Position numbers and translations under genes: made by a program | The notes under the pieces: model-generated | What the model saw: the letters and a program-made list of their open reading frames with translations, nothing else | Told to the model about the DNA's origin: nothing | Databases searched by the model: none | In this document: piece by piece, positions 47,864 through 64,000 of the stretch | How positions within the stretch are numbered: the first letter of the stretch is position 1 | Layout of the letters: every line of letters begins with the position of its first letter | NCBI GenBank assembly: GCA_943787175.1 | Contig: CALSLK010000003.1 | Location: 1 to 64,000, forward strand | DNA from: an uncultured Alphaproteobacteria bacterium | GTDB lineage: Bacteria; Pseudomonadota; Alphaproteobacteria; SP197 | Direction: 5' to 3' | DNA: 64,000 nt

Positions 47864-47891
47864 GTGTCATCCCGGTCGACCGGGATGACAC
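47864..47891. repeat. 28-bp perfect palindrome inside the demethylase operon
   Basis: GTGTCATCCCGGTC followed directly by its exact reverse complement, between the stop at 47848 and the GTG start at 47919. It would form a loop-poor hairpin in mRNA or a cruciform in DNA. Similar GTCATCCCGG palindromes are common dispersed repeats in alphaproteobacteria. I noticed no second copy in this window. Confidence 0.7.
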
Positions 47892-47918: not shown

Positions 47919-49883
47919 GTGACTCACTTCCCACACCTTTTTCAGCCCATCGAGTTGGGCGGTCTGGAAATCAGGAACCGGGTGATCTTCGGGCCGCATG
48001 GCACCAGTCAGGGTCGGGCACCCGGCACGATGCCCGATCTGGTGGCCTATCACGCGGCGCGGGCCCAAGGCGGCGTCGGGCTCATCATCACTGAGGCCCA
48101 TACGGTTCACGAGAGTTACGAGGTGCGCAACAGCCTGCTTGCGGTCAGCGATGATGACGCCATCCCCGAATTGCGGGAGATGGCCGATGTCGCGCACAAA
48201 CATGGTGCGGCGATGTTTGGCCAGTTGTTCCATCCCGGCCGGGCGGCGGCACATCGGGTGAATGGTGCATTGTTGCCTGCCTACGCGCCTTCGGAGGTGC
48301 CGGATGAACGCCATCACGTGATGCCTGCACCCATGTCACAGGCCATGATCCGCGACATCATCCGTTCCTATGGCGAGGGTGCGCGTCGCATGGCCGAGGC
48401 TGGACTGGACGGCATCGAATACATGATCTCGATGGGGTATCTGCCGGCTCAGTTCGTCAATCCGCGCGCCAATGTGCGGACCGACGAATACGGCGGTAGT
48501 TTTGAGAACCGCTTGCGGTTCGTGCGGGAATCCCTGTCCGCGGTGCGAGCCGGTGTCGACAGCACGACCGTGGTGGGTGTCCGGATTTCGGTCGATGAGC
48601 TCGACCACGGTGGGCTTTCGCCTGACGAAAGTATCGCAATCTCCAAGGCATTGGCCGACGAGGGCCTGATCGATTACGTCAACGTCATCGGCGGGTCCGG
48701 CGCGTCGGTGGGAGGCGCGGTCCACATCGTGCCGCCCATGTTTGTGAAGCAGGGGTATCTGGCGGATGATGCGGCGCGCCTGAAGCAGGCGGTGGGCGTG
48801 CCGACCATGCTGGGCGGACGGATCAACCAGCCCCAGACTGCCGAGCAGATCGTGGCGTCGGGTCAGGCTGACATGGTGTGCCTGGTGCGCGCGCTGATCG
48901 CTGACCCGTTCTTTACGACCAAGGCACGTGATGGAAAGGCCGATGACATCCGTGCCTGCATTGCCTGCAATCAGGCCTGCATCGGGCATCGGCACATGGG
49001 GGCTATTGTCTCCTGTATCCAGCACCCCGAGACCGGGCGGGAACGGACCTTTCCTCACATCAAGGACAAGGCGCAGGAGCGGCGTAAGGTCATGGTCGTC
49101 GGCGGTGGGCCCGGTGGTATGAAAGCTGCTGCTGTCGCGGCCGAGCGAGGACATGCCGTCACGCTGTATGAGAGGGACGCCCAGTTGGGTGGTCAGACCC
49201 GGCTGGCGCAGATGCTGCCGGATCGGGCTGAGTTTGGTGGCATCATCACCAATCTGAGCCGTGAGATGGCGCAATCAGGCGTCACGGTTATGAAGGGCGC
49301 GGCAGTGGACGCCGCCTTGGTGGCTGCTAAAGCACCGGATGTTGTAATCGTGGCGACCGGAGCTGTGCCCTACCTGCCGGCATTAGAAGGGCTGGATGAG
49401 GCCCACGCGGTGGATGCATGGTCTGTCATCAAGGGTGAAGCCAATGTTGGCGGGCGCGTGGTCATTGCCGACTGGCGTTGTGACTGGGTCGGTATGGGCG
49501 TGGCAGAGATGCTGGCCCGCAACGGCTGCCATGTCCGGCTTTATTGCCAGGGTGTCCAGCCCGGCCAGAACCTGCAGGCCTATCTGCGGGATCACTGGAT
49601 CGGTGTGCTTGATGGTCTCGGTGTGGAGACACGCCCCTACACACGCCTGTTCGGGGCCGACAGCGACAGTGTCTATTTCCAGCACATGACCAACGGCGAG
49701 GCTGTTGTGGCCGAAGAGGTCGATACACTGGTGCTGGCGCAGGGACATCGGCGCGAAGCAACACTGCATGACCAGCTTGCTGAGGAATGGGCTGGTGAAC
49801 TGCATCTGATCGGCGATGCCCTGGCGCCACGCACGGCCGAGGAGGCGGTCATGGAAGGTCTTCAGTTGGCGATGGCGGTCTAG
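47919..49883 (+). CDS. DgcA/StcD-type NADH:flavin oxidoreductase (N-methyl demethylase-like)
   Basis: An intact 654-residue paralogue of the preceding flavoprotein. FMN barrel (FPHLFQPIELGGLEIRNRV), cluster motif CIACNQAC with SCIQHPETGRE, and C-terminal VMVVGGGPGGMKAAAVAAE. GTG 47919 has GAGG 8 bp upstream. It is the fourth gene of the operon starting at 43578. Two demethylases downstream of two Rieske oxygenases would allow stepwise removal of three N-methyl groups (for example glycine betaine to dimethylglycine to sarcosine). Its 3' end overlaps the convergent homocysteine methyltransferase by 4 bp. Confidence 0.9.
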   Translation: MTHFPHLFQPIELGGLEIRNRVIFGPHGTSQGRAPGTMPDLVAYHAARAQGGVGLIITEAHTVHESYEVRNSLLAVSDDDAIPELREMADVAHKHGAAMFGQLFHPGRAAAHRVNGALLPAYAPSEVPDERHHVMPAPMSQAMIRDIIRSYGEGARRMAEAGLDGIEYMISMGYLPAQFVNPRANVRTDEYGGSFENRLRFVRESLSAVRAGVDSTTVVGVRISVDELDHGGLSPDESIAISKALADEGLIDYVNVIGGSGASVGGAVHIVPPMFVKQGYLADDAARLKQAVGVPTMLGGRINQPQTAEQIVASGQADMVCLVRALIADPFFTTKARDGKADDIRACIACNQACIGHRHMGAIVSCIQHPETGRERTFPHIKDKAQERRKVMVVGGGPGGMKAAAVAAERGHAVTLYERDAQLGGQTRLAQMLPDRAEFGGIITNLSREMAQSGVTVMKGAAVDAALVAAKAPDVVIVATGAVPYLPALEGLDEAHAVDAWSVIKGEANVGGRVVIADWRCDWVGMGVAEMLARNGCHVRLYCQGVQPGQNLQAYLRDHWIGVLDGLGVETRPYTRLFGADSDSVYFQHMTNGEAVVAEEVDTLVLAQGHRREATLHDQLAEEWAGELHLIGDALAPRTAEEAVMEGLQLAMAV

Positions 49884-59369: not shown

Positions 59370-61889
59370 ATGAGCGACAACAGCGCCAACCTGATGCCGA
59401 CCGAACAGATCGGTGCAACAGGCGACAAACACTATGTTCCCGCGCCCTGCCAGATTGCTTGCCCCGTGGGCACGGATGCGCCGTCCTATATCGGCTACAT
59501 CTGGAACGGTCAGTTTGACGAAGCGTTCGAAGCGATCACGGCAACCAATCCGTTCAGTTCGATCTGTGGGCGTGTCTGCGATGCACCCTGTGAGCCGGCC
59601 TGCCGTCGTGAGGCCAGTGATGGTGCGCTGCAGATCAGGAACCTGAAGCGGTTCGTGATGGAAAAACTGGGTGCGACCTGGAAGCCCGAAGCGGCACCGG
59701 TCACGCGCCAGCAGAGCATTGGTATCGTGGGCGCCGGACCTGCCGGTCTGGTCGCTGCGCATGATCTGGCTGTGGCCGGGTTTAAGGTTGATGTCTATGA
59801 GATGACCGACCGCCCCGGCGGTATGATGATCTGGGGAATCCCTGCCTTCCGCCTGCCTGTCGGCACGATTGAAGAAGATATGAACCGCCTGATGGCGCGC
59901 TGCCCGGGCCTGACGATCCATACCAATACCGGCCTTGGCCGGGATGTCTCGCTGGAAGAGCTGAAGGAGCGTCACGATGCCGTGGTGCTGACCATCGGTT
60001 CCTGGTGGGGCAAGAAGATGGGCATTCCCGGCGAGGCCGATAGCCGCGTTGTTGATGGCGTGGAGTTCCTGCGTCGCATCAACAGCGGTGAACGCCCCCA
60101 GATGCCCAAGGAAGTTGTTGTGATCGGCGGCGGCGACGTTGCCATGGATGCCTGCCGCGCAGCACTGCGGCTGCCAGGTTGTGAACACGTCAAGGTGGTC
60201 TATCGCCGTGGTCCCGATGAAATCCCTGCACGCAAGATCGAGCTGCAGGGCGCCGTCGAGGAAGGCATCGAGTTTGTCTACAACACCCAGCAGGTCGAAG
60301 TGATTGCCGATGGTGATGACAATCTGAAGCTGCGTTGTGTGCAGACCGGTATGGGTGAGCCCGATGCCGATGGCCGCCGCCGGCCCGAGCCGATTGCCGG
60401 GTCCGAGCATGACATCGACTGTGGCATGGTGATTGCTGCTGTTGGCCAGTTTGGCGATTGTGACGATGCATCGACCAAGGCGTTGATGGGGTCCGACCGG
60501 GTCAACACCGAATGGGACAACATGCGCACGGGCGACCCCAAGGTGTTTGCCGCCGGTGATGGTGCCTTTGGTGGCTCGACCATCGTGATGGCGATGAGCC
60601 ATGGCCAGCGTGTTGCTTATTACGTCCGTTCGTTCCTCGATGGTGACGAGGCACCGGTGACCTACCGCACCCCCTGGCGTACGCGCCGCGTACCGGTAGC
60701 CCAGGACCTCAACTGGGAGATCAATGCTCTGCATCATCCCGAGTTCCACGGTGTCGGCGAAAACCCGGTCGAGTTTCCCGAGATTGAATCGACCTATACC
60801 TGGGAAGAAGCACGTGACGAGGCCGCGCGGTGTTATCGCTGCGATGCCGAAACCGGATCTGCCGATTACTCCGTGCAGAACCGTGAGGACATCTTCCTGA
60901 TGGCCCGCATGGACAAGACCGATGTGGCGCGCCAGGCCAAGATGCTCGCCAAGCGGATGCGCCACAGGGAAAACCCATTCCCCGAAGACCGCCCGGCGAC
61001 CGTCGATGACCTGGTCTTTTTGCCCGCCAACCTGTCACGCCTTGTGATCGACCCCTATCGTGAAGCCTGCCGGGTTTCGACCGACCTTGGGTTCGGGCGC
61101 ATGGAGATTGAACAACCGTTCTTTGCGACCGGCTTCGACAACGCTCCCGCGTCTGTGAAGGATGGTGTTGCGATCGGCCTTAAAGGCTCGTCTGGCGGCT
61201 ATATCGGGGTTCAGCCCCTGAATGACGACACGCCATGGCTGCAGCTTGTGTTGCCGGGTCAGATTGCTCCCAGTGCTGAGGCAGCAGGCCAGATCCATGT
61301 TGTCGGACCGCGCTTTGAAGCACCGCAGAACGTAACGCGCCTGCACGAGAATCAACTCCTGGGAATTTCGGTCTCGCACCATGAAGCCCTGGAAGATGCC
61401 ATCGTGTTCGGGCTGGAAAACAAGTTCGATGTGCTTCTGGTCAATGGCAGCTCTGCCGTGGGCCGTGACTGGCCTGAGTTGGCTGGCCCGCCCGACCTCA
61501 GCATGATGCGTGAGACGATCACGATCCTGCGGCGCCTGAACATGGAAGAGGAAATCGACATCCTCTGGTTCGGCGGTATGCGCTCGGGCACGGACGCGGC
61601 AAAGATCATCGGCATGGGTGCAAAGTCCGTTGTGATGGGCATGACCCTGGCGCTGGCCGCTGGTGGTGAGATCGTGGGCGATCACGAACTGGCCTTTGCG
61701 CCGGACTATTCCGAGGAAGAGCGTGGCCATGCGGTTCACAACATCCTGAAAGCCGCATCGGGCGAAGCCTCGATGATGGCGCGTTGTACGGGCAAGACCA
61801 ACCTGCACAACCTGGAACCCGAAGATATGCGCGCCCTTACCCTGGCAACCAACGAGGCCACAGGCCTCGTTCTTGCGGGCAAACACTGA
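59370..61889 (+). CDS. GltD-like NAD(P)H oxidoreductase fused to a glutamate-synthase-like C-terminal domain
   Basis: An intact 839-residue protein. Residues 1-90 hold cysteine-rich cluster motifs (CQIACPVGTDAP; CGRVCDAPCEPACRRE). FAD binding is at SIGIVGAGPAGLVAAHDL and NAD(P)H binding at VVVIGGGDVAMDACRAALRL. This is the GltD small-subunit layout. From about residue 540 it continues as a shortened FMN-barrel-like domain (FDVLLVNGSSAVGRDWPEL; WFGGMRSGTDAAKIIGMGA) without the three-cysteine cluster motif. It probably delivers electrons to the preceding subunit; the extra domain may be structural. It lies 11 bp after the preceding gene. Confidence 0.88.
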   Translation: MSDNSANLMPTEQIGATGDKHYVPAPCQIACPVGTDAPSYIGYIWNGQFDEAFEAITATNPFSSICGRVCDAPCEPACRREASDGALQIRNLKRFVMEKLGATWKPEAAPVTRQQSIGIVGAGPAGLVAAHDLAVAGFKVDVYEMTDRPGGMMIWGIPAFRLPVGTIEEDMNRLMARCPGLTIHTNTGLGRDVSLEELKERHDAVVLTIGSWWGKKMGIPGEADSRVVDGVEFLRRINSGERPQMPKEVVVIGGGDVAMDACRAALRLPGCEHVKVVYRRGPDEIPARKIELQGAVEEGIEFVYNTQQVEVIADGDDNLKLRCVQTGMGEPDADGRRRPEPIAGSEHDIDCGMVIAAVGQFGDCDDASTKALMGSDRVNTEWDNMRTGDPKVFAAGDGAFGGSTIVMAMSHGQRVAYYVRSFLDGDEAPVTYRTPWRTRRVPVAQDLNWEINALHHPEFHGVGENPVEFPEIESTYTWEEARDEAARCYRCDAETGSADYSVQNREDIFLMARMDKTDVARQAKMLAKRMRHRENPFPEDRPATVDDLVFLPANLSRLVIDPYREACRVSTDLGFGRMEIEQPFFATGFDNAPASVKDGVAIGLKGSSGGYIGVQPLNDDTPWLQLVLPGQIAPSAEAAGQIHVVGPRFEAPQNVTRLHENQLLGISVSHHEALEDAIVFGLENKFDVLLVNGSSAVGRDWPELAGPPDLSMMRETITILRRLNMEEEIDILWFGGMRSGTDAAKIIGMGAKSVVMGMTLALAAGGEIVGDHELAFAPDYSEEERGHAVHNILKAASGEASMMARCTGKTNLHNLEPEDMRALTLATNEATGLVLAGKH

Positions 61890-61892
61890 AGT

Positions 61893-61922
61893 TTGTTTCA
61901 GCCGGACTCCGGCGCCTGAAAC
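61893..61922 (+). terminator. Imperfect hairpin after the glutamate-synthase-like operon
   Basis: GTTTCAG and CTGAAAC arms continue into CCGGA/TCCGG with a small bulge. No T-run follows. It lies directly after the operon stop at 61889 and may end or attenuate the transcript. TGAAAC words repeat further to 61953. Confidence 0.4.
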
Positions 61923-61966
61923 AATTGAAACATTAGGTGTCTTGGGACTGAAACATAGGTTTGCAA

Positions 61967-62007
61967 CTCTTGTGCTGTACGGTCGGTCCGACCGTACAGC
62001 ACAAGAG
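61967..62007. promoter_or_regulatory. 41-bp perfect palindrome covering the kinase ribosome-binding site
   Basis: Two exact 20-bp arms (61967-61986 and 61988-62007) around one central T; the core ACGGTCGG-T-CCGACCGT resembles TetR-family operators. The right arm ends in ACAAGAG, so the AAGAGG ribosome site (62003-62008) of the kinase would be sequestered if the RNA folds. It could be a DNA operator, a translational switch or a terminator. Confidence 0.75.
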
Positions 62008-62019
62008 GATTTACCCAGC

Positions 62020-64000
62020 GTGACAAATACGGAACCTGCTGCCGCTCCACATCGACCGCCCGCACAGGCGCTCGTCGACTTTGCAATCTCTCAATCGCGG
62101 GCGGTTTTCTATATCTCCGCGCTGGAGAAGTATGAAGGTGAGCACGGTCCTGACGCCCCCAGGCATTTTGTCAGCAACAACATGAAGGACATCATCGGCT
62201 ACGAACAGGACCTGTTCTATGACGACCGGGAATTTGGTTACAGTCTGATGCATCCCGATGACCTGGACAGCTACATGAAGATGCTGGCCAAACTGAAGGA
62301 AACCGGCAAGGCCTATGAAACCTACCGTATGCGTTCTGCATCGGGAGACTGGCTCTGGTTTCGCGATGAAGTACGTCTGTTGCCGCGCGATGGGAACCGG
62401 CCCCATGAGTGTGTCGGGTGTATGGTTGAGGTTACTGCAGAAAAAGAGACCGAGCTGGCGCTGCGCCGAACGCAGGCTTTCAATTACGCCATTGTCGAAG
62501 CCTCGCAGCAGGGCATCGTTTCCGTGAATGTCAGAGGTATGATCGTTGGATTCAACCCCTCTGCCGAAGCACTGTTCGGGCACAGTCTTGACGCTGTTTT
62601 GGGCAAACCCGTGGCCGATCTCATTGTTCCTGAGCATCTACGTGGCCGGCATCATGATGGATTTACCCGGTGTGTCGAGACCGGTGAAAGCAGCCTGATC
62701 GGCCAGAAAATTGAAACAGAAGCGCTGCATGCCGATGGTCACCTGATACCCGTCGAGCTGGCCTTCTCGCGGATCGAGATTGATGGTGATACGCAGTTCG
62801 TTGCGGAGATACGCGACATTTCAGAACGGGTTGAGGCAGACCAACGAAGCCAAAGGGCCGTTCAGTTGTTGCAGGACGCCGTTGATAGCCTGCCGCACGG
62901 GTTTTCCGTGCTGGACAAGGAAGGCGACTATGCGGTCTGTAACCGGGCCTTTGCTCAGATTTATGGGCTTGAGCCAGAACAGCTTGTTGGCCTGAACCGC
63001 GCAGATATGATTCATCTGCTTACAGAAAAGGTCGAGAGCGTTGCGGGAGAGGCGATTGATGGCCCGGAATCTCTGACCGAGGCATTGACGCAGACCCTGG
63101 GCGCTCCGGTTGAAGTCAAGCTGAGGTCTGGTGACTGGTGGCAGGTTACGCGCCAGAAAACTTCAGACGGTGGTATCGCGGCGTTGTGCAGCGACATCAC
63201 AACGCTCAAGGCTGCCGAAGAAGCTGCAAGTAACAGTAACGCCTTTATCCTGAGCCTGATGAATGCCTGCCCCCTGCCATTTGGCATGACCCGGTTGGAC
63301 GATGGTTTTGTCATCTATGAGAGCCCGGCTTCCAAACAACTTTTCCAGCGCGGACTGGATGGCAAGCCCGCGCATGCAATCAGTAATTTCAAGTCACCTA
63401 GACAGCGCGAGGTGTATGTCGAGATTCTCAAGAGGGACGGGTTTGTTGACGACTTTCAGATTGAAGCCCTGCGTGCCGATGGGTCGGAGTTTCCAGCTTC
63501 ACTGACGGCGCGTCTGGTGGAGTTTGAGGGTGAAGAAGTCATTGTCTTTGCCACTGATGACCTGACCCGACAGCACGAGATTGAAGCAGAGATGGCGCGT
63601 CAGCAGGAGGCGCTCTATCAGAGCGAAAAACTGAGTGCCCTGGGTGAGCTTCTGGCGGGCATTGCGCATGAGTTGAACAATCCGCTTTCTGTTCTGGTCG
63701 GTCAGGCATTGATGCTCAGTGAGACTGCGGTAGACGCAAAGACCCGGGAGAGAGCCGAGAAGATTGGCAGTGCAGCAGACCGCTGTGCACGAATCGTTAA
63801 GGCGTTCCTTGCCATGGCACGTCAACAGCCCACGCGAAGTGCCGAAACCGAGATCAATGAGCTGGTTGAAGGCGCCCTTGAGATGACCGCTTATGCTCTG
63901 CGGTCCAGTGATGTCACCGTGCAATTGCAGCTGAGTGATGAACTGCCGGTGATCCACGGAGATCCCGACCAGCTGCGTCAGGTTCTGATCAATCTTCTAG
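62020..64000 (+). CDS. Multi-PAS sensor histidine kinase (partial, C-terminus beyond window)
   Basis: GTG 62020 opens a frame of at least 660 residues running off the right edge. About four PAS-type modules can be made out, e.g. FVSNNMKDIIGYEQDLFY with the PAC-like WLWFRDEVRLLPRDG, IVGFNPSAEALFGHSLDAVL, YAVCNRAFAQIYGLEPEQLV, and a fourth around GFVIYESPASKQLFQ. The HisKA phospho-acceptor is His550 (LGELLAGIAHELNNPLS), and the start of the ATPase N-box (DQLRQVLINLL) is at the window end. No transmembrane segment is evident, so it is probably cytoplasmic. The partner response regulator is outside the window. A 41-bp palindrome overlaps its ribosome site. Confidence 0.92.
   Translation, partial: MTNTEPAAAPHRPPAQALVDFAISQSRAVFYISALEKYEGEHGPDAPRHFVSNNMKDIIGYEQDLFYDDREFGYSLMHPDDLDSYMKMLAKLKETGKAYETYRMRSASGDWLWFRDEVRLLPRDGNRPHECVGCMVEVTAEKETELALRRTQAFNYAIVEASQQGIVSVNVRGMIVGFNPSAEALFGHSLDAVLGKPVADLIVPEHLRGRHHDGFTRCVETGESSLIGQKIETEALHADGHLIPVELAFSRIEIDGDTQFVAEIRDISERVEADQRSQRAVQLLQDAVDSLPHGFSVLDKEGDYAVCNRAFAQIYGLEPEQLVGLNRADMIHLLTEKVESVAGEAIDGPESLTEALTQTLGAPVEVKLRSGDWWQVTRQKTSDGGIAALCSDITTLKAAEEAASNSNAFILSLMNACPLPFGMTRLDDGFVIYESPASKQLFQRGLDGKPAHAISNFKSPRQREVYVEILKRDGFVDDFQIEALRADGSEFPASLTARLVEFEGEEVIVFATDDLTRQHEIEAEMARQQEALYQSEKLSALGELLAGIAHELNNPLSVLVGQALMLSETAVDAKTRERAEKIGSAADRCARIVKAFLAMARQQPTRSAETEINELVEGALEMTAYALRSSDVTVQLQLSDELPVIHGDPDQLRQVLINLL

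Follow-up and report, generated by a model that had tools for sequence, protein, structure and literature searches.

A single-copy 41-bp perfect palindrome before a truncated hybrid histidine kinase gene: a possible template-switch product close to a conserved 17-bp box

Introduction

Operators of TetR-family repressors show dyad symmetry near a start codon. In leader hairpins that mask a ribosome-binding site, the stem overlaps the site and the cost of opening it is raised. A survey of bacterial inverted repeats found spacers of 4 nt to be the most frequent and reported a strong enrichment of such repeats at transcription ends (PMC13155455). Palindromes of the REP/REPIN type form dispersed families, as outlined in PMC3116915. 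Template switching has been documented to create perfect hairpins in a single event (PMC8794818) and, in the outline given by PMC7202029, acts at quasipalindromes in E. coli.

Here we describe a 41-bp perfect palindrome in front of a PAS hybrid-type histidine kinase gene in a 64,000-nt stretch of alphaproteobacterial DNA (the window). It shares with TetR-family operators a dyad near the start codon and departs from them in its 41 bp of perfect symmetry, without a second site or an identified regulator. As in masking leader hairpins, the stem overlaps the ribosome-binding site and the opening cost is raised; however, its contact with the site is limited to the three outer pairs, the start codon lies clear of the stem, and the element has no ligand, no alternative fold and no conservation. 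The 1-nt centre without a T-run does not fit the surveyed pattern (PMC13155455). The intergenic position between same-strand genes recalls REP/REPIN-type elements as outlined in PMC3116915, but the palindrome is single copy and hence belongs to no dispersed family, which rules out a dispersed palindromic repeat of the REP/REPIN or MITE kind. Template-switch hairpins and quasipalindrome correction, as sketched in PMC8794818 and PMC7202029, are matched in the perfect reverse-complement arms, the minimal centre, the lack of sequence relatives and the location at loci under relaxed constraint; the palindrome differs in that its own event is not reconstructed, for want of a close outgroup.

Results

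The palindrome reads CTCTTGTGCTGTACGGTCGG-T-CCGACCGTACAGCACAAGAG, with 20 of 20 pairs complementary: its arms (61967-61986 and 61988-62007) match perfectly (100%) around the single base T61987. Arm comparison thus confirmed the initial annotation, which had reported a perfect 41-bp palindrome of 20 bp on each side of one central base and had judged it far beyond chance; about 4.5e-7 palindromes of this kind (arms of at least 20 nt, centre of 0-3 nt) are expected per window at the base composition of the window. It is the longest palindrome there, the runner-up among perfect short-centre palindromes having 14-nt arms (47864-47891). No other short-centre palindrome in 1.1 Mb of mostly unrelated loci has arms longer than 15 nt, the maximum found there. 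The runner-up in the window, GTGTCATCCCGGTCGACCGGGATGACAC (28 bp), lies shortly 5' of the GTG of an open reading frame at 47919, and a copy of its arms with a different loop is found at L205:15042. The kinase palindrome and its neighbouring features are listed in Table 1.

Table 1. Coordinates of features around the palindrome (positions in the window).
Feature	Position	Strand	Remarks
Upstream gene	59370..61889	+	839-aa Fer4_20 / Pyr_redox_2 protein, glutamate-synthase-like C-terminal region
TTGTTTCAG, inverted partner of CTGAAACAA at 61916	61893..61901	-	Leader comparison
Conserved 17-bp box CTGAAACAATTGAAACA	61916..61932	+	Site probably bound by the response regulator now lost; invariant in 5/5 orthologous leaders
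Third GAAAC repeat of the box element (CTGAAAC)	61948..61954	+	GAAAC invariant in 5/5 leaders
41-bp perfect palindrome	61967..62007	.	20-nt arms, centre T61987; -34.5 kcal/mol as RNA
GAGG ribosome-binding site	62005..62008	+	Three bases within the right arm; sequence, pairing probabilities
PAS hybrid-type histidine kinase gene	62020..64000, ORF to ~64206 past the window end	+	GTG start, truncated; domain match; stop codon at L002:4207

The right arm extends to 62007, which places the first three bases of the GAGG within the outermost stem pairs and leaves the fourth outside. The proposal that the palindrome buries the start signals of the kinase therefore holds for most of the ribosome-binding site but not for the GTG at 62020, which is located outside the palindrome. 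Folding of the 41-mer as RNA pairs these three bases. For a 30S-like footprint of -20 to +15, modelling yielded an opening cost of ~22 kcal/mol with the hairpin versus 8.3 kcal/mol for a transcript starting at the right arm; for 16 further candidate starts in the window, the model gives costs between 10 and 25 kcal/mol. According to this model, the hairpin would damp translation if transcription begins upstream, yet at a cost within the range of ordinary genes. The suggested translation-blocking hairpin is accordingly supported by its high stability, its overlap with the ribosome-binding site and the modelled rise in opening cost, but not by conservation in orthologs. The right arm is followed by GATTTACCC, and because there is no T-run or U-tract the hairpin cannot serve as an intrinsic terminator. 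Neither an intrinsic-terminator nor a sigma-70 pattern was found in the 130-nt gap before the kinase gene.

The core occurs once in the source genome when up to three mismatches are allowed, and the arm was found solely as the two halves of the palindrome itself; the genome search for further copies that had been proposed as a check thus returned none. One arm match with three mismatches was detected in each of three other genomes of the genus, which is not above control. Similarly, the 17-bp core (up to two mismatches) is not enriched in the source genome, with 4 matches compared to 11 for the reversed control. The exact core had zero matches in GTDB and IMG/VR scans, similarity searches of phage and plasmid DNA gave no match, and a literature search found no mention of the core or of the box CTGAAACAATTGAAACA. 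An Rfam search returned only sub-threshold chance matches, those on the hairpin being microRNA-like. Alignment of the leaders from five genomes revealed that the palindrome is absent from all four orthologous pre-kinase loci, in relatives that are only ~50% identical in the kinase. The arms are thus not kept as a dyad, the outcome that the initial annotation had named as refuting its reading and contrary to what a conserved regulatory device would show, and a conserved cis-regulatory RNA found no support in these leaders or in the Rfam result. The leader of the same-genus genome G005 is not alignable across the arms, and the ancestral state at the palindrome site is not reconstructable.

The box CTGAAACAATTGAAACA sits ~35 bases upstream of the palindrome. 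Its spacing from the third GAAAC varies by 10 bp among the five loci, and the dyad formed by TTGTTTCAG and CTGAAACAA is also present in G005 and missing in G012, G014 and G015. Among 385 Alphaproteobacteria, the exact 17-mer was found in five genomes beyond the source (reversed control, 0); three of these carry it in the interval that separates a related hybrid kinase from an OmpR-type regulator, and in another it immediately precedes a related kinase (loci compared: window 61916-61932; L041, L042, L043, L044; L240-L245). The gene upstream is common to the source and G005 loci and not to the other three of the five, which indicates that the box moves together with the kinase. G293 has a further copy of the box downstream of the regulator gene, 5' of a globin-like open reading frame. 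On these sequence comparisons, the box is the probable binding site of the cognate OmpR-type regulator, the gene of which is lost here; judged by the same leaders, the sequence retained for regulation would be the box and not the palindrome.

Domain matches identified PAS, HisKA and HATPase_c domains in the kinase. Its open reading frame stops right after GTGIGLAL, so that HATPase_c is matched over positions 1-79 of 111 and the receiver domain is missing, and runs straight into a convergent metA, the end of which is missing as well (family match 1-260 of 298). At L041, L042 and L043 (54-56% identical), the protein spans the remaining HATPase_c and a receiver domain, and the gene is followed by that of an OmpR-type response regulator and by a convergent metA (identified by family and synteny matches). 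The 1.4-1.9 kb that separate kinase and metA in these relatives are missing from the source genome, and the regulator gene is absent at the source locus. A search of the assembly for a close copy of the lost kinase end revealed only weakly similar receiver domains. With HATPase_c incomplete and both the receiver domain and the neighbouring regulator gene absent, a functional hybrid histidine kinase with an OmpR-type partner was rejected. A single junction past the window end (L002:4150-4230, ~64150-64230) truncates both the kinase gene and metA; it may be a deletion of the segment present in the relatives or an assembly join. In G005 the kinase is more broken than in the source genome, and no metA was found in that genome. 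With 77 versus 71 lineage-specific changes, the remaining kinase is evolving no faster than usual, and this ordinary rate implies that the loss is recent, that the remnant is used or that the junction is an assembly error.

A census of ~1.3 Mb of sampled stretches, which represent about a third of the source genome and are not a random sample, yielded three perfect inverted repeats with arms of at least 20 nt and loops of up to 8 nt, the kinase palindrome included; their sequences are unrelated. Both other repeats adjoin gene starts on the upstream side. One (G000:C6:130473; L171:10473-10514) is TTTTTGCACTGAATGTTCAATATTGAACATTCAGTGCAAAAA, a perfect palindrome of 42 bp; 14 nt separate it from the start of a 138-aa open reading frame for which neither a Pfam match nor a relative in 40 related genomes was found. 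The other (G000:C5:25585; L250:5585-5633) is 49 bp long, its 21-nt arms being separated by a 7-nt loop, and lies between two genes on one strand, the one ~30 nt after it being aminotransferase-like by reading of its translation. In G005, a 43-bp perfect palindrome (G005:C6:160334; L190:334-376) lies inside a gene that is transporter-like by its translation and is decaying, with a premature stop as well as deletions. Both arms of this palindrome can be aligned to homologs as an imperfect pair, with ~48 bp missing between the arms, and this alignment suggests arm homogenisation plus deletion, as template switching could leave.

Two further repeats were noted. An element with identical flanks, GACTGATTCACGCTTCATGTCG-NNN-CGACATGAAGCGATCAGGCTCTA, is present at two places in the genome (L175:5068 and L250:5659). 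In G008, an inverted repeat with 18-nt arms (L199:16515-16555) directly precedes an array of tandem repeats that has cas2-like sequence upstream; the inverted repeat resembles a CRISPR leader end, a label read from translations.

Discussion

We tentatively prefer the reading that the palindrome is a lineage-specific, single-copy product of template switching that passively damps translation of the truncated kinase and is no dedicated switch. A single event of foldback template switching during DNA replication, in which the reverse complement of one arm was copied to give the other, could have created it; by analogy with the G005 palindrome and with the events described in PMC8794818 and outlined in PMC7202029, this is its most likely origin. 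It lies in the leader of a kinase gene whose two-component system was probably broken by one deletion, with loss of the HATPase_c end and the receiver domain as well as of the response-regulator gene and the metA end. In transcripts starting upstream, the strong hairpin would tie up the outer ribosome-binding site and passively lower translation of the truncated kinase. The lack of conservation, the lack of a second site and the broken downstream gene favour a template-switch product over a selected hairpin, an operator and an artefact, in this order of probability. The single copy and the absence from four orthologous leaders in which the nearby 17-bp block is invariant count for it, together with the empty GTDB and IMG/VR scans for the exact core, the breakage of kinase, regulator and metA at one site, the G005 palindrome and the energetics of the hairpin. 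Against it count the G005 leader, which is unalignable across the arms, the two other sampled long repeats, which also precede gene starts as a functional class would, and the ordinary rate of the remaining kinase.

A leader hairpin selected to hold kinase translation low or to protect the mRNA, uncoupling the kinase from the upstream operon, would draw on the -34.5 kcal/mol stem that pairs three of four binding-site bases, on the footprint cost of 22 as opposed to 8 kcal/mol without the left arm, and on the same arrangement of the 42-bp palindrome elsewhere in the genome. We consider it unlikely, as the hairpin is not conserved in orthologs, the downstream gene is truncated and its system lost, the opening cost is within that of other starts in the window, and the missing U-tract precludes intrinsic termination. 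Ranking next, and likewise unlikely, is a DNA operator at which a dimeric or tetrameric repressor, TetR-like or other, blocks the kinase promoter. The perfect dyad near the start codon and its GC-rich inner core, ACGGTCGG-T-CCGACCGT, fit such a site, but the TetR-like operator of the initial annotation found no support in either recurrence within the genome or conservation at orthologous promoters: core and arm have no second copy, the 17-bp core is not above control and the dyad is missing in orthologs. In addition, no regulator gene is tied to the dyad, and 41 bp of symmetry exceed what an operator typically needs. Least probable is an assembly or library artefact in which a foldback read join made the palindrome. 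The recurrence in two genomes of perfect palindromes with arms of 20-21 nt would fit this, as would the simultaneous truncation of two genes at the nearby metA/kinase junction, but gene order across the palindrome agrees with G005, the junction is 2.2 kb away and the missing pieces are not found elsewhere in the assembly.

More broadly, perfect palindromes of 41-43 bp in this lineage, single copy and unrelated to each other, might form a small class, with some of them at ribosome-binding-site edges; each would stem from one template-switching event, and some would have been retained as new translation-control hairpins. We regard this as very doubtful; if true, it would mean that regulatory elements are born fully formed. 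The modest case is that the striking symmetry probably arose by mutation at a locus in decay; the palindrome then serves to illustrate how a perfect hairpin can appear next to the start of a gene. Of greater importance may be a by-product of the analysis, CTGAAACAATTGAAACA, a sharply conserved candidate for the binding site of an alphaproteobacterial hybrid-kinase/OmpR-type system; it is absent from the literature searched and could serve to trace the regulon of that system.
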